A DNA stretch of 64,000 nt, taken from contig NZ_SRSF01000001.1 in NCBI RefSeq assembly GCF_004803465.1, forward strand, positions 1,302,501 through 1,366,500, given 5' to 3'. The notes beneath the pieces are model-generated. The model worked only from the letters and a program-made list of their open reading frames with translations, ran no database searches and was not told where the DNA came from. A program made the position numbers and the translations under genes. The DNA comes from Neolewinella litorea (GTDB lineage Bacteria > Bacteroidota > Bacteroidia > Chitinophagales > Saprospiraceae). Each line of letters starts with the position of its first letter. Position 1 is the first letter of the stretch. Below are positions 29,183-37,676 of the stretch, one piece after another.

Positions 29183-30394
29183 TTGCCCACTGAAGCCTTT
29201 ATCTACGACGCGCTGCGCAGTCCCCGGGGCCGCGCCGTCCACCCCGCCGACCTTTACGAGGTCAAGCCTATTGAAATCCTTTCCCAGTGCCTTTCCGCCT
29301 TCCAGCGCCGCAGCGGGCGGGACGACCTTCCGCCGGAAATTGACGACCTCATCATCGGGTGCAACACCCCGGCCGGCGACCAGGGTTACAATATTGCCCG
29401 CGCCGCCCTGCTCTATACGGGTTGGGGGCAGGCCCGGGGCGGACTGCAGATCAACCGGTTCAACACGAGCGGATTGGAAGCCATAAACCTGGCCGCCGCC
29501 CGCATCACCGCCGGTTACGGAAAGATCATCATCGCGGGGGGGCTGGAGGTCATGTCGCGGGTACCCACCTACCTCAACGGCGGCCCCATGATGAACGACC
29601 CGGCCACCGTCATCAACAGCCACTACATTCCCCAGGGCGTGGCGGCCGACCTGGTGGCCAGTACGCATGGGCTACTGCAATCGGACCTCGACGCCTACGC
29701 CCTGCGCAGTCACGCCCGCGCGGTTGCCGCCCGCGAATCCGGTTACTTCGCCCCCAGCCTGGAGCCCATCACGGATCAGAACGGGCTGCCCATTCTTTCC
29801 GAAGACACCCTCCCCGACGCCGGGCTCGACCTGGAACAGTTGGCGACGCTGGAACCGCGTTTCGCGGAGATGGGCCTGGCCGGCTTCGACGAGATGGCCC
29901 TGCACCGCTTCCCGCTCGTGGACCACGTGGGCCACGTACACACCAACGGCAATACGAGTCCGCCCGCCGACGGCTGCGCCCTGTGCCTGCTGGGCAACCG
30001 CTCGGCCGGCGAGCGACTCGGATTCAAGGCCCGCGCGCGGATCCGCGCCGTGGCAATGTCGGCCGTCGACGCGACCCTACTCACGGGCGGCGTCAATGCC
30101 AGCGACCTGGCCCTGGAGCAGGCGGGACTGAGCCGGCAGGATATTGACCTGTGGGAATTCAACGAAAGCTTCGCGGCCCCTTCCATCCGCTTCCAGCAGC
30201 GGCTAGGGATTGACGAAGACCGCATCAACGTCCTTGGGGGAAGCATCGCCCTGGGGGAACCCCTGGGGGCGGTGGGCGGCATGATGCTCTGCCAGATCCT
30301 GGACGAACTCGAACGCCGCGACCTCACCCTGGGTAGTCTGACCATCGACGCCGGGGCCGGGCTGGCCGTTTCCACCATCATCGAACGACTATGA
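29183..30394 (+). CDS. Thiolase-fold protein lacking the catalytic Cys, His and Cys residues
   Basis: A 403-residue protein with full-length thiolase architecture: NRF-x-x-SGLEA, GGLEVMSRVP, NESFAAP, GG-IALG-PLGA-G and a C-terminal TIIERL. The nucleophilic Cys of the usual RFCASG motif is Asn94 (codon AAC 29462), the His of GHP is Glu359 (GAA 30257) and the general-base Cys of C-x-GGG is Asp389 (GAC 30347). Asn327 of NE-F is kept. The fold is thus intact but standard thiolysis is not expected. TTG 29183 (MPTEAFIYDALRSPRG) is chosen as start because it matches thiolase N-termini; the frame back to 29006 overlaps the divergent gene. It overlaps the FadJ-like gene by ATGA, so the two are probably one complex. 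Confidence 0.85.
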   Translation: MPTEAFIYDALRSPRGRAVHPADLYEVKPIEILSQCLSAFQRRSGRDDLPPEIDDLIIGCNTPAGDQGYNIARAALLYTGWGQARGGLQINRFNTSGLEAINLAAARITAGYGKIIIAGGLEVMSRVPTYLNGGPMMNDPATVINSHYIPQGVAADLVASTHGLLQSDLDAYALRSHARAVAARESGYFAPSLEPITDQNGLPILSEDTLPDAGLDLEQLATLEPRFAEMGLAGFDEMALHRFPLVDHVGHVHTNGNTSPPADGCALCLLGNRSAGERLGFKARARIRAVAMSAVDATLLTGGVNASDLALEQAGLSRQDIDLWEFNESFAAPSIRFQQRLGIDEDRINVLGGSIALGEPLGAVGGMMLCQILDELERRDLTLGSLTIDAGAGLAVSTIIERL

Positions 30395-32532
30395 TCCATT
30401 ACCGTAAGGACACCGATAATATCGTTACCCTCATCCTGGACATGTCCGGGCGGTCCGGCAACCTGCTGAACCACGAGATCGTGGCGGCATTCGCCCCGGT
30501 GATCCACCACCTCAAGCAGGAGAAGGCCGCCGGTAAGCTCAACGGGGTGATCATCACCTCGGCCAAGAAGGATTTCCTGGAGAGCGGCGACCTGGATTAC
30601 CTGTACCGACTCAACGAACCGGCGCAGGCCTTCGAGGCCGCCCAACAACTCAAGCAGTTCCTCCGCGACGTCGAGGTGCCCGGCGTACCCGTAGCGGCCG
30701 CGATCAACGGCGACGCCCTGGGTACCGGTTTCGAACTGACGCTGGCTTGCCACTACCGCATCGTACTGGCGGATTCCGACCTCCGGCTGGGCCACCCGGA
30801 GGTCAAGATCGGACTGATCCCCAGCGGCGGGGCCATTATCCGGCTGATGTGGTTGCTGGGCATTGAACGGGCCTACCCCTTGCTGCTGGAGGGCAGGCGG
30901 TACAGTCCGCAGGAAGCGCTCAAGGTGGGCCTTATTGACGAACTGGCCGACACCCGCGAGGAGATGCTCATGCGCGCCAAGGCCTGGCTGCTCAAACACC
31001 ACGACGTACGGCGCACCTGGGACGACCCGGACGGCGACATCCCCGGCGGCACGGCCGCCGACCCAAATTTGGGCCACCGCATCCGTCTGCTGACCGCGCG
31101 GCTGTCGGCCAAGACCAACGACCTCTACCCGGCCAAGCGCGCGATCATCGACCTGCTGGCCGAGGCCAGCAAACTGGACTTCGCCACCGCCTATCGCCTC
31201 GACAGTCGGTACTACGCGCGGGTGGCTACCGACCCGGTCACCAAGAATATGATCTCCACCTTTTGGTTCGACAAGCAGGCCGTGCGCGGTGGCGTGGGTC
31301 GGCCCAAGGGCTACGGCAAGTTCCGCGCCCGCCGGGTGGGCGTGATCGGCGCCGGCATGATGGGTTCCGGAATTGCCTTCCTCTGCCTGCGCAACGGCCT
31401 GGAGGTGATACTAAAGGACGTCAGCCAGCCCATTGCCGACCGCGGCAAGGAATACGTGGCCGAAAAGATCGACGAGTATACCGAGCGGGGCACCTTCCAG
31501 CCCGAAGACCGGGAGAAACTCCTCAGCCGGATCACCACCACCAACAGCAGCCACCTGTTCAAGGACTGCGATATCGTGGTCGAGGCCGTCTTCGAAAACA
31601 AGTCGGTAAAAACCAAAGTGACCCGGGAAGCCGAGGAGCACCTGGATGAGTATTCCATCTTCGCCACGAATACCCTTTCCATCCCCATCACGGAACTCGG
31701 CCGGGAAAGCCTGCGTCCCGAAAATTACGTAGGGCTCCACTTCTTCTCCCCGGCCGAAAAAACCTCCGTCGTGGAGGTTGTGGTGGGCGAGCAGACCAGC
31801 GACGAAACCGTGGCCCGGGCCTTCGACTTTGCGATCGCCATCCGAAAACTGCCGATCGTGGTCAAGGACAGCTGGGGCTTCTTTGCCGCCCGCGTGCTCA
31901 ATACCTACATCCTGGAGGGCGTCACCATGCTGCGCGAGGGCTACCCCGCGGCGCTGATCGAGAATATGGGACGGCAGGCCGGCATGAAAAAAGGCCCCTT
32001 GGCCATGGCTGATGAGCTGGGACTGAAGCTCGTGCTGCGCTACGAACAACAAGCCGCCGAGCACTACGGCAAAAGGTACAAGCAGCATCCCGCGGTACCC
32101 GCCCTGACCACCATGCGGGAAGAGCTTGAACGCAGCGGAAAGAGCAAGCGCGCTGGCTTCTACGACTACGACGTGGAGGGTCAGGCCCGCCTCTGGCCCG
32201 GTCTGGCCGAACATTTCCCCGTGACAAAGGACGATTACAACCGGCGCCGCATGAAGGATCGCTTCCTCTTCGCCCAGGTTATTGAAGCCGGGTGGTGCCT
32301 ACAAGAGGACGTCATCGAGCACATCGAAGCGGCCAACCTGGCCAGTGTGTATGGCTGGGGATTCCCGGGCTATACCGGCGGCGTCATGCGATATATCTAC
32401 AGTTACGGACAGGAAAATTTCAAACAACGTTGCGCCGAACTGAAGGACCGCTACGGGCAGCGGTTTACTGTTCCCAAGTACCTGCGTGAACTGGACGCCG
32501 ACAAACTCATTCCCCGTTCGCTATCACGCTGA
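30391..32532 (+). CDS. FadJ/FadB-type 3-hydroxyacyl-CoA dehydrogenase/enoyl-CoA hydratase
   Basis: A 713-residue multifunctional beta-oxidation protein. The N-terminal crotonase domain (1-290) keeps both catalytic glutamates, in AINGDALGTGFEL and GHPEVKIGLIPSGG, though the oxyanion-hole block is SGDLDYL, one residue shorter than the usual GADI form. The NAD domain begins VGVIGAGMMGSGIAF at about residue 315; the catalytic His is in VGLHFFSPAEKTSVVEVV. The usual Asn of GFFVNR reads GFFAAR, as in a sub-family where this position varies. It hydrates enoyl-CoA and oxidises 3-hydroxyacyl-CoA. Coupled to the thiolase-fold gene by a four-base overlap. Confidence 0.92.
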   Translation: MIHYRKDTDNIVTLILDMSGRSGNLLNHEIVAAFAPVIHHLKQEKAAGKLNGVIITSAKKDFLESGDLDYLYRLNEPAQAFEAAQQLKQFLRDVEVPGVPVAAAINGDALGTGFELTLACHYRIVLADSDLRLGHPEVKIGLIPSGGAIIRLMWLLGIERAYPLLLEGRRYSPQEALKVGLIDELADTREEMLMRAKAWLLKHHDVRRTWDDPDGDIPGGTAADPNLGHRIRLLTARLSAKTNDLYPAKRAIIDLLAEASKLDFATAYRLDSRYYARVATDPVTKNMISTFWFDKQAVRGGVGRPKGYGKFRARRVGVIGAGMMGSGIAFLCLRNGLEVILKDVSQPIADRGKEYVAEKIDEYTERGTFQPEDREKLLSRITTTNSSHLFKDCDIVVEAVFENKSVKTKVTREAEEHLDEYSIFATNTLSIPITELGRESLRPENYVGLHFFSPAEKTSVVEVVVGEQTSDETVARAFDFAIAIRKLPIVVKDSWGFFAARVLNTYILEGVTMLREGYPAALIENMGRQAGMKKGPLAMADELGLKLVLRYEQQAAEHYGKRYKQHPAVPALTTMREELERSGKSKRAGFYDYDVEGQARLWPGLAEHFPVTKDDYNRRRMKDRFLFAQVIEAGWCLQEDVIEHIEAANLASVYGWGFPGYTGGVMRYIYSYGQENFKQRCAELKDRYGQRFTVPKYLRELDADKLIPRSLSR

Positions 32533-32605: not shown

Positions 32606-34414
32606 ATGCCGGATAATGCTTGCGATATTGGAGAGATCCTTGAAACGATCCCTATTCCCGGCTTCTTAGCCCACCTGGATGGTGGTATCGTCTACGCAAA
32701 CAAGGCCATGATGGCCATTTCCGGACAGCCTGCCCTGGTGGACATGGACCGAACGGTCTTTGGGCTTGGTATTTTTCATAATCCCGCGGAATTCCGGGGA
32801 TTCATCCAAAGCTTCAAACTCGGCGGCAGCACGCGACGCCTGGTTTTGCCCGTGGGTCGGCTCACCAACTCAGGGCGTCCGCTGGTACTCTTCGCCAGCC
32901 GGGTCAGCTACCGCCAGCACCCCGCCCTCTTCGGCGTCATCAGTCCGGCCACCTCGACCGGGGATGAGATCCTGCGCAGTGAACCCGACGATAACCTCGA
33001 TGCACTGCTGGACAAAGTCGAGACCTACACGCTGCGGGTGCATCGCTCCGGACGGCTAATCCACCTGAATCTACCCCTGCTCATCGAACTCGGATACGAC
33101 CGTAGGGAGCGCACCCCTCCACTGCGTCAGATCGACGCGGAAAACGACGCTCAGCGGCTTACCCAATTGATGGATTCCGCCCTGGTAAGGGGGGATGCCA
33201 CCTACGAAACCTCCTTTCAGCGCAAGGACGGCACCCTCTTTCCGGTCAAGGTGGTCGTGAAACCCATCCGCAAGGTTGAATTCAAGGACCAGTTCATGCT
33301 GACCGCCTACGACCTCACTGAGCGGCGCAACCAGCAGCAACGCGAACAGGCCATGGAGATCAAGCTGGAACGCATGTCCAAGGAGTTGGAGCGCAGACAG
33401 CTCCTCATCAAGGAAAAGTTCGGTACACCGTCCGATTTTACCATCATCAGCAAGAGCCCAGCTTACGCCCGTGTCCTGGAGCAAGTCAATCAGGTGGCCG
33501 CCACCGACAGTACCGTGCTGATTACGGGAGAAACCGGTACGGGCAAGGAGCTCATCGCCCGGGCCATCCATGCCAAAAGCCTCCGGGCCAACCGCCCCTT
33601 GCTCATCCTCAACTGCGGGGCGCTCCCGGCCGACCTCATCGAAAGCGAGCTGTTTGGATACCGGCGGGGTGCCTTCACCGGGGCCCGGGCCGACCACCTC
33701 GGTCGTTTTGAACTGGCCGACGAGGGAACGCTATTCCTCGATGAGATCGGGGAGATGCCTATGCTGCTGCAAACCCGCCTGCTGCGCGTATTGCAGGATG
33801 GCGAATTCACCCCGCTGGGCGCAACCGAAAGCATACAAACGGACGTCAGGATCATCGCGGCCACCAACCGCAACCTGCGCAAGCGGGTCGCGGAGGGAAC
33901 CTTCCGGTCCGACCTGTATTTCCGACTGAACGTCTTCCCCATTCACAGCCTTCCCTTGCGTGAGCGCCGCGAAGACATTCCCGCGCTGATCGACCATTTC
34001 ATCCAGAAACACGCTCCGCCGAACCGGCCGCTTCCCCGGCTGCGGCCCCAGGACTTGGAGAAGTTGATCAACTACGATTACGAGGGCAACGTGCGGGAAC
34101 TGGAGAACATCATCCAGCGCGCGCTCATCATCAGTACGGGCGACATACTGGAGGTTAACTACGAACGCCACGCCCGGTCATCCGCAGAACCTGACGGGGC
34201 GCCGGACAGCATTCCGGAGCCGGAGGTTTTGGATTTCGAGGAGATGCAGCGCCGTCACATCATGGCCGTACTGAGCATGACGGAAGGCAAAGTGAGTGGA
34301 AAGGGCGGGGCCGCGGAGTTGCTCGGGTTGAACGCGCAGACACTGTTCAGCAAGATGCGCAAACTGGGCATCAGCCGGCAGTCCACTAAGTATTCTCCAC
34401 CACCTCAAAACTGA
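32606..34414 (+). CDS. PAS-domain sigma-54-dependent transcriptional activator (NtrC/Fis type)
   Basis: A 602-residue regulator. Two PAS-like domains lie at about residues 10-120 and 125-245, followed by a short coiled coil (QREQAMEIKLERMSKELERR). The AAA+ domain has Walker A GETGTGKE, the sigma-54 contact loop GAFTGA, Walker B GTLFLDEIGEM and an arginine-finger region. A Fis-type helix-turn-helix closes it (GKGGAAELLGLNAQTLFSKM). There is no receiver domain, so the PAS domains probably sense a ligand or partner directly. Its 3' end overlaps the convergent CheB-CheR gene by 29 bases. Confidence 0.93.
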   Translation: MPDNACDIGEILETIPIPGFLAHLDGGIVYANKAMMAISGQPALVDMDRTVFGLGIFHNPAEFRGFIQSFKLGGSTRRLVLPVGRLTNSGRPLVLFASRVSYRQHPALFGVISPATSTGDEILRSEPDDNLDALLDKVETYTLRVHRSGRLIHLNLPLLIELGYDRRERTPPLRQIDAENDAQRLTQLMDSALVRGDATYETSFQRKDGTLFPVKVVVKPIRKVEFKDQFMLTAYDLTERRNQQQREQAMEIKLERMSKELERRQLLIKEKFGTPSDFTIISKSPAYARVLEQVNQVAATDSTVLITGETGTGKELIARAIHAKSLRANRPLLILNCGALPADLIESELFGYRRGAFTGARADHLGRFELADEGTLFLDEIGEMPMLLQTRLLRVLQDGEFTPLGATESIQTDVRIIAATNRNLRKRVAEGTFRSDLYFRLNVFPIHSLPLRERREDIPALIDHFIQKHAPPNRPLPRLRPQDLEKLINYDYEGNVRELENIIQRALIISTGDILEVNYERHARSSAEPDGAPDSIPEPEVLDFEEMQRRHIMAVLSMTEGKVSGKGGAAELLGLNAQTLFSKMRKLGISRQSTKYSPPPQN

Positions 34415-37400
34415 TGTAGCGTAGGCGGCCACTGATGTAGACCGGACGGTAAAGTACCCGGCGCGGGTGGGCATCGTCCACCAGTTCATCTTCAGTGAAA
34501 CGAATCTCTTCCATTGGGCTACCCTCCTTCAGTCGGTTCAACGCACGGCGAAACCGTTCCAGACCCGCGGGGCGAATGAAATCGCTCAGGTAACGATCTG
34601 GGTATTGGTCCGGTGAACGGAGGTGCGTGGGCATGTGATTGACGAGGATCAACTGTTCGTCGAGGTTGATAAGCCCCGCGTCCTGCTGCAGGTAGCTGAG
34701 CGTTTTCTTGTACTGGTCGATGATGGCGGTAGACTGCCGGCGTTCCACCTCGAACTCGGTAATGTCCTGAACCATTACCATTACCTGATTGACCTCGTTG
34801 TCTTCCGGCCGGCTGCCGACCTTGACGATGGGCAGCAGTTGCAGCTTTAAATAGAGCAGTTGGTCGTCCGGGTCACTGATCGTGATGGACAGCTGACCAA
34901 TCTCCTGGTCGTTAAAGGTTGCCCGGAGGGTTTCACTGAATTTGACCTTGTCCTCAACTTCCGTGATCAAATCGGCGAAGTAAATACCGACCAAGTCCTC
35001 CCTCGACCGCCCGGCCAGCGGCCGGTTGATTTCCTCGATGCGGCTGTTCTCGCGCATGATCCCGATCGTCTCCTCGGTATTGTTAAAAATGGCGGCGTAC
35101 TTCTGCGCCATGTCGGTGAGGCGCCGGCGCGTAGTTACCAGGTCGTTGATGTCCACGAAGGTGATCACCACGCCTTCCACCCGGTGCTGATCAGTGACGT
35201 AGGGCAGCATGCGCAGCAAGTAGAAATTGCCATGGCGGTCCTCGATCTCCTGATCGTGCCGGGAATTGGTCTGCAGGACGAAATGGCAGAGTTCCTCGAT
35301 ATTCAGGTTATCGAAGGGGGTAGAGAAGGAGGTGATCGGCCTTCCCAGGTCCGTCACGTGCAGGTCGAACTGCTGCCCCATGCCAGGGGTGAAGCGACGT
35401 ATCCGGAGTTGATTGTCCACGAAGATCGTACTGATCTGCGTGCTCTTCATCAGGTTGTGAACGTCGTTATTGATGTTATTAAGCTCCTCGTTCTTGCGTT
35501 GAAACTCGGCGTTGACCGTATAAAGCTCCTCGTTTACCGACTGAAGTTCCTCATTGGCGCTATGCATTTCCTCGTTGGAAGCCAGCAACTCTCGGTTGCT
35601 GGACTGCAGTTCCTCGTTGGTGGCCTCCAGCTCGTTGTACAATTTCTGCGCGCGTTGCTCGCTGAGCATCAATTGATTCTCCAGCACTTCGATCTTCTCC
35701 CGCAGTTGCCCGTCGGGAGTAAACACTTCCTCGGTACTAGAATGGCTGGCTACCTCCTCCGGCTCCACGGCAGCGGGAAGAAACTCGATCATGGCGACCG
35801 GCGATTCAGGCTGTGCAACATCCTGCAGGCTGAAGCGTACGCGGAGGTACCGCGGGGCAGACTTGGAATCGGCAACGTTTATCCGCTCGAACGCGCCACT
35901 CTTGCCGGTACGCAGAATGCGGTCGACCCCGGCGGTCAGCAGGTTGCGAGCCTCGTCATTCACCACGGATTGCAGGGTGAGGTGGGCATTAAAGCGGGGC
36001 AACCGCAGCATCCCGTTAAAGTCTCCGTTCAGATAAAGGATGGTGTAGTGCTGGTCCACAAACAGCGTGGCCGGCGCGTACCGCTCGGAGAGAAATCGGG
36101 CAAATTGGTCCATAATCGTGGGGCCGAGCTTAGCGGCCGGCCAGGCAGTCGAATTCTCCCCGTCCGGAGCGTCCTTCAGCCGGTAAGGCGTGAGCGGCAG
36201 TTGCCGGCCCCGAGGGAGCGGGTTCTCCTGTGGCGGTTGAATCCGTTGGGCGGATCGGGCATGTTCGCCCTGGCGCTTGCGGTAGATCTTCCAGCGGCGG
36301 TTGATGTCGGTAAATGCCCGTTGCAGGCTACCCAGGCTTTCGCTGGGCCCCAGCATCAGCACCCCGGTCGGATTGAGGCTGAAATAGAAGTTGTTCAGGA
36401 TCCGTTGCTGGTCCTCCCCGTTAATGTAAATCAGGAAATTGCGGCAGGAAAGCAGGTCGATCCGGATGAAGGGCGGATCATCCAGCAGGTTCTGTACTGC
36501 GAACAGGACGTGCTCCTTCAGTTCCTGACACACTGTGTACCCTTGGGGCGAGCGCACGAAATACCGCTGCAGCCACTCCGGCGGCACGTCGGCCGCGATA
36601 TGGTCCGAATAGACTCCTTCCGCGGCGGTAATGATGGCCCTGCGGTCCACATCCGAGCCGAAAATTTTGAAGGGGCGGGAAATGCCGTGGGTCGTTAGGT
36701 AGTCGTGCATCAAAATGGCCAGGGTATAAACCTCTTCGCCCGTAGAGCAGGCGGGTACCCATATCCTCACCTCCCGGTCTTCCGCTACGGCGCATAACTC
36801 GGGCAATACGTCGAGCCGGATGCTGTTAAACGCTTCCTGATCGCGGAAAAAGCGGGTGACGCCAATCAGGAAGCTTTCGCGCAGCAACTGCAGTTCCTCC
36901 TCGTTGCCGAGGGCAAAGTTCACGTATTCCCGCAAACTGGAAAAGGAGCTCAGTAGGATCCGCTTTTCGATCCGACGCAGGATCGTACCCGGGCGATAGC
37001 GATTAAAATCAACTCGGGAGCTTTCGTTGACGCGGTCCAGGAGCGCCTGGCGCAACTCCGTCGGGCTGTAGCGCTCGGGTTCATCGGATGCATTGCCGTT
37101 GGGACTCCCCGTCTTCTGGATGAACGCGGCCAGGCGTCGGGCCAACTGGTCCGGCGGGAGCACCAGGTCCGGCAACTGGTCGCGCAGGGCGGCGCGGGGC
37201 ATGTCCTCGAAGCGTGCCGTCTCCGCGTCCTGAACCATGACCATTCCGCCCCGGTCCTTCACTTCCAGCAGCCCCCGACTTCCGTCGGAGCCCATGCCGG
37301 ACAGCAAAATCGCGATGGCGTCCTCCCCGTGCGCAGTGGCTAGTGTGGTAAAGAAATCGTCGATGGGTCGGTAGTATTCCGATCTGTCCGTAGGCCGGGG

Positions 37401-37676
37401 CAGGGTGCGAAGCGCGTATTTGTCCACCTGAACTTCCAGATCAGGCGCCCGCACGTATACGTGATCGGGCACGGGCACCGTAGTTTCCAGGAGCGGCACC
37501 ACGCGTAGGGAGGTGACCCGTTGGAGGATCTCGGTAGAATAGCTTTCGTGGTCCGGCGACAAATGCTGGACCACCACGTAAGCCAGCCCCAGGCCGGACC
37601 GTAGTTCGGAGAAGAAGGATTCCAATGCCTCCAGGCCGCCGGCAGAGGCTCCAATGCCAACGATTCTTGCGGACAT
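34386..37676 (-). CDS. CheB-CheR-PAS hybrid signalling protein
   Basis: A 1096-residue cytoplasmic protein. Residues 1-190 are a CheB methylesterase domain with the Ser-His-Asp set in GASAGGLEAL, QHLSPDHES and LLSGMGSDGS. Residues about 205-460 are a CheR methyltransferase with WVPACSTGEEVYTLAI. A PAS-like region follows, then a long coiled coil (about 680-760) built on NEEL repeats, and at least two more PAS domains. There is no histidine kinase or receiver. Such hybrids are thought to modify or sense chemoreceptor-like partners outside chemotaxis. No mcp, cheA or cheW gene lies in the window. Confidence 0.93.
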   Translation of the reverse strand: MSARIVGIGASAGGLEALESFFSELRSGLGLAYVVVQHLSPDHESYSTEILQRVTSLRVVPLLETTVPVPDHVYVRAPDLEVQVDKYALRTLPRPTDRSEYYRPIDDFFTTLATAHGEDAIAILLSGMGSDGSRGLLEVKDRGGMVMVQDAETARFEDMPRAALRDQLPDLVLPPDQLARRLAAFIQKTGSPNGNASDEPERYSPTELRQALLDRVNESSRVDFNRYRPGTILRRIEKRILLSSFSSLREYVNFALGNEEELQLLRESFLIGVTRFFRDQEAFNSIRLDVLPELCAVAEDREVRIWVPACSTGEEVYTLAILMHDYLTTHGISRPFKIFGSDVDRRAIITAAEGVYSDHIAADVPPEWLQRYFVRSPQGYTVCQELKEHVLFAVQNLLDDPPFIRIDLLSCRNFLIYINGEDQQRILNNFYFSLNPTGVLMLGPSESLGSLQRAFTDINRRWKIYRKRQGEHARSAQRIQPPQENPLPRGRQLPLTPYRLKDAPDGENSTAWPAAKLGPTIMDQFARFLSERYAPATLFVDQHYTILYLNGDFNGMLRLPRFNAHLTLQSVVNDEARNLLTAGVDRILRTGKSGAFERINVADSKSAPRYLRVRFSLQDVAQPESPVAMIEFLPAAVEPEEVASHSSTEEVFTPDGQLREKIEVLENQLMLSEQRAQKLYNELEATNEELQSSNRELLASNEEMHSANEELQSVNEELYTVNAEFQRKNEELNNINNDVHNLMKSTQISTIFVDNQLRIRRFTPGMGQQFDLHVTDLGRPITSFSTPFDNLNIEELCHFVLQTNSRHDQEIEDRHGNFYLLRMLPYVTDQHRVEGVVITFVDINDLVTTRRRLTDMAQKYAAIFNNTEETIGIMRENSRIEEINRPLAGRSREDLVGIYFADLITEVEDKVKFSETLRATFNDQEIGQLSITISDPDDQLLYLKLQLLPIVKVGSRPEDNEVNQVMVMVQDITEFEVERRQSTAIIDQYKKTLSYLQQDAGLINLDEQLILVNHMPTHLRSPDQYPDRYLSDFIRPAGLERFRRALNRLKEGSPMEEIRFTEDELVDDAHPRRVLYRPVYISGRLRYISFEVVENT

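Follow-up and report, generated by a model that had tools for sequence, protein, structure and literature searches.

The gene at 29183..30394 of the window, by which we mean the whole 64,000-nucleotide stretch of Neolewinella litorea DNA that was analysed, probably encodes a thiolase-fold beta subunit of a FadI/FadJ-type pair in which thiolysis has been lost; the subunit is probably still bound to FadJ, and its pocket probably still binds a ligand. In beta-oxidation complexes, thiolysis is commonly regarded as the reason for having a thiolase subunit. In the 403-aa product described here (FadI/FadA-like by its open reading frame and its domain and profile matches) the catalytic residues are replaced: alignment puts Asn94 (codon AAC, 29462..29464) where thiolases have the nucleophilic Cys (Cys92 in M. 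tuberculosis FadA), Glu359 (GAA, 30257..30259) where they have the GHP His and Asp389 (GAC, 30347..30349) where they have the second catalytic Cys, and Asn327 (30161..30163), the Asn of the NEA motif (NES here), is kept. The codons of the three replaced residues read as the preliminary description had claimed, and they leave the catalytic columns of a competent degradative thiolase (acetyl-CoA C-acyltransferase) occupied by other residues. The adjoining gene (30391..32532; like all features given in this work, on the + strand) encodes a fadJ-like alpha subunit of 713 aa, recognized by domain and profile matches, that combines an enoyl-CoA hydratase and a 3-hydroxyacyl-CoA dehydrogenase, and its start overlaps the stop of the thiolase-like gene in an ATGA (30391..30394). 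Its Glu115, Glu137, His450 and Glu462, whose catalytic roles we take to be those of E. coli FadB, are all intact in the alignment, and such an alpha gene next door, its hydratase and dehydrogenase residues preserved, is the mark of a FadI/FadJ-type pair. The TTG start at 29183 is supported by TTG or ATG at that codon in 18 of 19 genus loci, the exception (L048) having an ATG start one codon downstream.

Membership of the thiolase fold is clear, as both Pfam gathering scores are exceeded (102.8 bits against 26.4 for PF00108, Thiolase_N, and 98.9 against 27 for PF02803, Thiolase_C). The phmmer match to the M. tuberculosis Rv0859 chain covers the full length (E 8e-105) and pairs Asn94 with Cys-beta-92, Glu359 with the GHP His, and Asp389 with the second Cys. 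In the same alignment Gln151 (29633..29635), also kept, falls on Gln-beta-149, which structural work assigns to the acyl-tail tunnel of the M. tuberculosis enzyme (PMC11301753). The AlphaFold2 single-chain model has a fold that is confident overall (pLDDT 80.1, pTM 0.86), with residues 91-93 and 127-139 below pLDDT 50. Against the general thiolase model TIGR01930 the protein scores 280.8, above the curated cut-off of 240.55, whereas against the PRK08242 equivalog it scores 443.3 bits, below the cut-off of 514 that its Cys/His/Cys sisters L006 (653.5) and L007 (605.3) pass and the non-catalytic L114 (495) and L211 (435) fail. An automatic acyltransferase name would therefore be misleading for this protein, an example of how naming by general thiolase models can go wrong. 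The FadJ of the window also lies below the curated FadJ/FadB equivalog cut-offs (435 vs. 869 for PRK11154).

The replacements are fixed throughout the genus, whose members are mostly marine bacteria. All 21 genus genomes carry the set Asn94/Asn327/Glu359/Asp389 (N/N/E/D) and a fadJ downstream of it, and the thiolase-like gene, 64-100% identical to that of the window, has no in-frame stop in any. A separately fetched set of 22 loci, overlapping with these genomes, gave the same picture: all 16 loci with at least 75% identity, 14 of them from Neolewinella or Lewinella, carry N/N/E/D, and the remaining six have Cys/Asn/His/Cys (five) or Cys/Gly/Tyr/Ser (one). The nearest named relative among these loci is that of Neolewinella marina (93% identical). 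Synonymous codons differ among the genus loci at all three sites (AAC/AAT, GAA/GAG, GAC/GAT), and this variation, with the same residues in 21/21 genomes and 16/16 loci, rules out chance and also the sequencing error at the three codons that the preliminary description had named as a danger. That description had further argued that the change is not degenerative drift, and its argument stands, the change being fixed through the genus and the partner hydratase/dehydrogenase apparently intact. Relatives with the normal Cys/His/Cys, which it had named as grounds for refutation, do exist in related genomes, but only outside the genus and at 55% identity or less. Gln151 is kept as Gln in 23/23 genus rows of our alignment (21 genomes, the window entering twice and L171 lying inside L081), and Glu115/Glu137 and His450/Glu462 are intact in 22/22 genus FadJ rows (21 genomes, the window again entering twice). 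In addition, there are cysteines at unusual places: Cys36 is fixed in the genus rows (23/23) and present in 15 of 114 intact rows, Cys370 is fixed as well (23/23) at a position where intact rows mostly have Gly, and Cys265 occurs in 21/23 genus rows where Ala is usual in intact ones.

Could the protein still be a thiolase that works through other residues? The fold is kept, the TIGR01930 cut-off is passed, and the three new cysteines might be thought of as substitutes. However, nucleophile, base and acid have all been replaced, there is no Cys in the four catalytic loops of the genus rows, and the PRK08242 model is failed where the Cys/His/Cys sisters pass it, so that we hold this to be very improbable.

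The ATGA coupling, to which the preliminary description had given weight, is present in the window but only in 10 of 19 genus loci, or 9 distinct genomes (L004 and L036 are identical), and is a subclade feature; in the other genus loci the two genes are adjacent, with gaps of up to ~295 nt. Five genes flanking the window pair were tested, four of which are confined to the eight nearest of the 22 loci, and the fifth is found in those eight plus L042, so none of these five stays with the pair through the genus and the pair itself appears as the conserved unit. Downstream of it (32606-34414 and 34386-37676) lie genes that we named by eye as a sigma-54-type PAS regulator and a CheB/CheR-PAS-like protein, and both were seen in the eight nearest loci only, of the 22.

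We then have the wider picture of the family, for which thiolases were searched in 120 family genomes, with the matches listed down to E ~1e-63 being read, and the window fadJ served as bait in 398 genomes, part of whose matches (80 further regions) were read. Thiolases of at least 370 aa entered an alignment of 159 rows, and FadJ residues were compared among proteins of at least 640 aa and at least 33% identity. The alignment holds 114 rows with Cys/Asn/His/Cys, 23 with N/N/E/D (in the window's genus only) and 22 with other sets; for the 105 rows whose genes are no more than 700 nt apart these numbers are 67, 22 and 16. Beside fadJ, the sets with at least two altered catalytic columns are Q-N-E/D-S/A in 7 genomes of one other genus (L192, L198, L200, L204, L206, L211, and L214), D-D-R-A/G in a further genus (2 genomes), and four sets seen in a single genome each, D-Q-H-G, C-G-Y-S, R-S-F-A, and E-Y-A-P. 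Where the stretch read lacks a fadJ, C-V-Y-S was found in 4 of the 5 genomes examined in another genus (L142, L272, L273, and L274), and a loop-deleted Q-D/E-S form in 2/2 genomes of another genus. A separate thiolase-like subfamily with Cys/Ala/His/Ser (L145, L146) likewise has no fadJ in the stretch read. The single-residue variants CNHP, SNHC, CNQC, and CNHA, each from a single genome, could be assembly errors and were kept out of the evidence, as was CNHS (L141). In every fadJ-linked lineage missing at least two thiolase residues, the hydratase Glu pair and the dehydrogenase His/Glu of FadJ are intact. In the stretches read around many fadJ genes of the family there is no thiolase, which indicates that FadJ is not always dependent on a linked partner.

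The reverse pattern, an alpha chain without a catalytic residue beside an intact thiolase, was also observed. His450 of FadJ is Arg in six loci with a thiolase alongside (L229, L230, L232, L237, L241, and L243), where the partner is Cys/His/Cys in 5 of the 6 rows and C-N-H-A in L230, and in five loci with no thiolase in the stretch read (L239, L247, L250, L228, and L242). In L108, L245, and L249, next to an intact thiolase, FadJ has Gln in place of the hydratase Glu137.

Outside the family, 29 fadJ loci were read from a search of 247 genomes of the class, 11 with a thiolase and 18 without one in the stretch. The adjacent thiolases were Cys/Asn/His/Cys in 10 of 10 full-length cases, and the one fragment lacks the first site and is normal at the others. 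The N/E/D protein was not found outside the window's genus in the genomes searched. The preliminary description had looked to Asn/Glu/Asp conserved across genera as a sign of a functional new subfamily; this was not borne out, since in the genomes searched the triad was seen in the one genus only and the other residue-losing genera differ. A degenerate DNA pattern for GEPLGAxG, run on 395 genomes of the phylum, matched 9, two from the genus and 7 in non-thiolases, the latter at chance level as the backward control pattern matched 6 genomes. This pattern misses other spellings and few family genomes were sampled with it, and within the family it is the 159-row alignment that provides the evidence.

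We preferred the FadJ tree, which suffers less from long branches than the thiolase trees. In it, operons whose thiolases are intact (Cys/Asn/His/Cys) form the sister group of the genus (SH-aLRT 99), and the Gln lineage (Q-N-E/D-S/A) and the other residue-losing lineages are placed apart from it. The fewest changes that account for the loss of at least two thiolase residues on this tree are 5, a count of state changes with regain allowed that rises to 8 if the single-residue variants are included. The AU test did not reject a shared origin for the Asn and Gln lineages (p 0.386), and once its long rows are left out the thiolase tree unites the two with a support of 51; in the thiolase tree the RSFA, EYAP, and CVYS rows have very long branches. 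Near-identical rows were removed before all trees, and 12 long or outgroup rows before the reduced thiolase tree. The best reading of these data is that the beta subunit of the FadI/FadJ-type pair lost thiolysis repeatedly and was itself kept. The different residues of the other genera point to this rather than to one shared Asn/Glu/Asp chemistry, and repeated loss with differing residues beside an intact linked FadJ suggests that thiolysis is dispensable and the subunit is kept for something else. The differing outcomes beside fadJ are a better fit to a dispensable activity that was lost than to one new chemistry.

A thiolase under relaxed selection and heading for loss could leave a similar mark on the catalytic residues, and some of the sister lineages do look relaxed. 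The thiolase/FadJ distance ratio of the Gln lineage is 1.81 and 1.66 in bins of matched FadJ distance (~1.7 overall), the single D-D-R pair reaches 2.66, and the long RSFA, EYAP, and CVYS branches have already been mentioned. For the genus, however, we think such decay highly doubtful. Among nine close members the median dN/dS of the thiolase-like gene is 0.079 (36 pairs), against 0.062 for fadJ (34 of the 36 pairs usable) and 0.065 for the separate FadA (five genomes, 10 pairs), which shows purifying selection, there is no in-frame stop in 21/21 genomes, and the relative rate is near normal. Matched bins were used because the ratio falls with distance (unmatched, it is 0.95 within the genus and 0.63 across all intact pairs), and with pairs whose genes lie up to 700 nt apart they give, for genus and intact thiolases, respectively, 1.01/0.99, 0.89/0.81, and 1.11/0.93, that is, the genus protein is slightly faster relative to FadJ in each bin. 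In the genus, 31 of the 38 positions in the four catalytic loops are invariant, compared with 44% of positions in the rest of the protein, a level reached by 113 of 20000 random window sets. Intact clades at a 95% threshold show a similar excess (34/38 and 25/38), so part of this constraint reflects the fold. Pairs within the genus are not independent, and the dN/dS, rate and loop figures are thus descriptive. Still, the near-normal rate with mostly invariant active-site loops indicates that the pocket of the genus protein probably still does something. A pure scaffold should have a drifting pocket, and both the loops and a rate only slightly above that of intact thiolases speak against it. 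With constraint so close to normal, retained acyl-CoA binding or a new reaction in this pocket would be plausible.

The other way to explain a constrained pocket is a neofunctionalised enzyme, in which Asn, Glu, and Asp would run a new non-thiolytic reaction on the acyl-CoA delivered by FadJ, e.g., the cleavage or hydrolysis of 3-ketoacyl-CoA by water, or an isomerisation in which Glu and Asp act as a pair. We judge this to be unlikely, if a good deal less so than decay or residual thiolysis. The genus stem is long in the thiolase tree (0.82) and short in the FadJ tree (0.19), the intact sister group having 0.32 and 0.26, a comparison that is rough as the two trees use different models; it suggests fast change on the stem, and it was followed by constraint, with the low dN/dS and near-normal relative rate given above and with pocket residues Gln151 and Asn327 kept. 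Besides, the Gln lineage, a second genus with 7 genomes, shares the NEA to NES change with the window protein and has an amide and an acid at the same two positions (Gln94 and Glu/Asp359). There is also a precedent in the steroid aldolases Sal and Ltp2, thiolase relatives that function although they lack the thiolase nucleophile (PMC12329534). However, the Gln lineage, much altered nearby too (Gln151, Gly391, Glu325) and evolving ~1.7 times as fast when set against its FadJ, makes an imperfect parallel, the other residue-losing lineages carry unrelated residues, and none of the five tested flanking genes stays with the pair, so that gene company suggests no pathway. It is thus with little confidence that we mention the more specific version, that Asn/Glu/Asp might be a new catalytic site formed in one burst on the stem and then fixed, with Gln-Asn-Glu/Asp as a partly parallel amide-plus-acid site. 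Equally tentative is the idea that such a site might process FadJ products without a thiol, for instance releasing the acyl group by water and not by CoA.

Returning to the preferred reading, a beta subunit that is no longer thiolytic, to judge by its replaced residues, would most likely still join FadJ in an alpha2beta2 complex and form its beta2 core, which is the simplest reason for keeping it, and its kept pocket would probably bind a ligand. The trifunctional enzymes are described as alpha2beta2 complexes with a beta2 core, and crystals of seven active-site variants are mentioned (PMC11301753). An M. tuberculosis beta chain with Ala at the nucleophile position has been solved (u127097, chain D of 7o1g and three more entries), which tells us that folding does not need the nucleophile; we infer that 7o1g and the three other entries contain the complete complex. 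Thiolytic cleavage of the 3-ketoacyl-CoA that FadJ produces would most likely fall to separate Cys/His/Cys thiolases of the same cell, a division of labour for which candidates are at hand. The genome of N. litorea has a second alpha/beta set, formed by an 835-aa FadB and a Cys/His/Cys FadA-type thiolase, a third Cys/His/Cys thiolase besides that pair and 8 matches to the acyl-CoA dehydrogenase N-terminal domain. Further thiolase matches are present in every one of the 21 genus genomes, and the FadA-type thiolase, read in 10 of them, is Cys/Asn/His/Cys in 10/10. Probably, then, the genus protein has stopped cutting fatty acids and taken another role beside FadJ. The preliminary description had proposed either a structural subunit or a new activity, and both are still to be considered; the evidence favours a retained non-thiolytic subunit, and the constraint on the pocket keeps the second in play.

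The bacterial family seems to have dropped thiolysis from its fadJ-linked subunit several times, and in the window's genus the new residue set is strictly fixed. The repeated losses are natural controls for the non-catalytic roles of the beta subunit, such as assembly, substrate channelling, and product holding, and the genus protein is a candidate, open to testing, for a new activity on the thiolase fold. No published report of this protein was found in the titles and abstract openings among the matches listed. The best full-length match of solved structure is M. tuberculosis FadA (Rv0859; PDB 4b3i, 7o4q, and others). Both proteins have a hydratase/dehydrogenase alpha partner and keep the Gln149 equivalent, but where FadA has Cys92, the GHP His, and the second Cys, the window protein has Asn, Glu, and Asp. 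Also close are the PRK08242-type acetyl-CoA C-acyltransferases beside fadJ in the same family (e.g., L006 and L007), 52-55% identical to it and adjacent to a fadJ ~57% identical to that of the window; these keep Cys/Asn/His/Cys and pass PRK08242, and the window protein does neither. The SCP2-thiolase relatives Ltp2 and Sal, according to the source cited above, are complexed with a hydratase, use Tyr/Tyr or Tyr/Cys in place of the thiolase nucleophile and work with a DUF35 domain, from which it follows that a thiolase fold can change its chemistry after losing the nucleophile (PMC12329534). In contrast, neither protein of the window pair gave a DUF35 match in a domain search, and a string search of the thiolase-like one for YDxF/Y, likewise on sequence, found none. 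Along another line there is BbsCD, reportedly a dehydrogenase of toluene beta-oxidation with inactive pseudoenzyme subunits. By its title, as cited in PMC10818641, it is a short-chain alcohol dehydrogenase, whereas the window protein has a thiolase fold, but again by that title it resembles the window pair in that a catalytically dead subunit is kept as a partner in a CoA-ester pathway.
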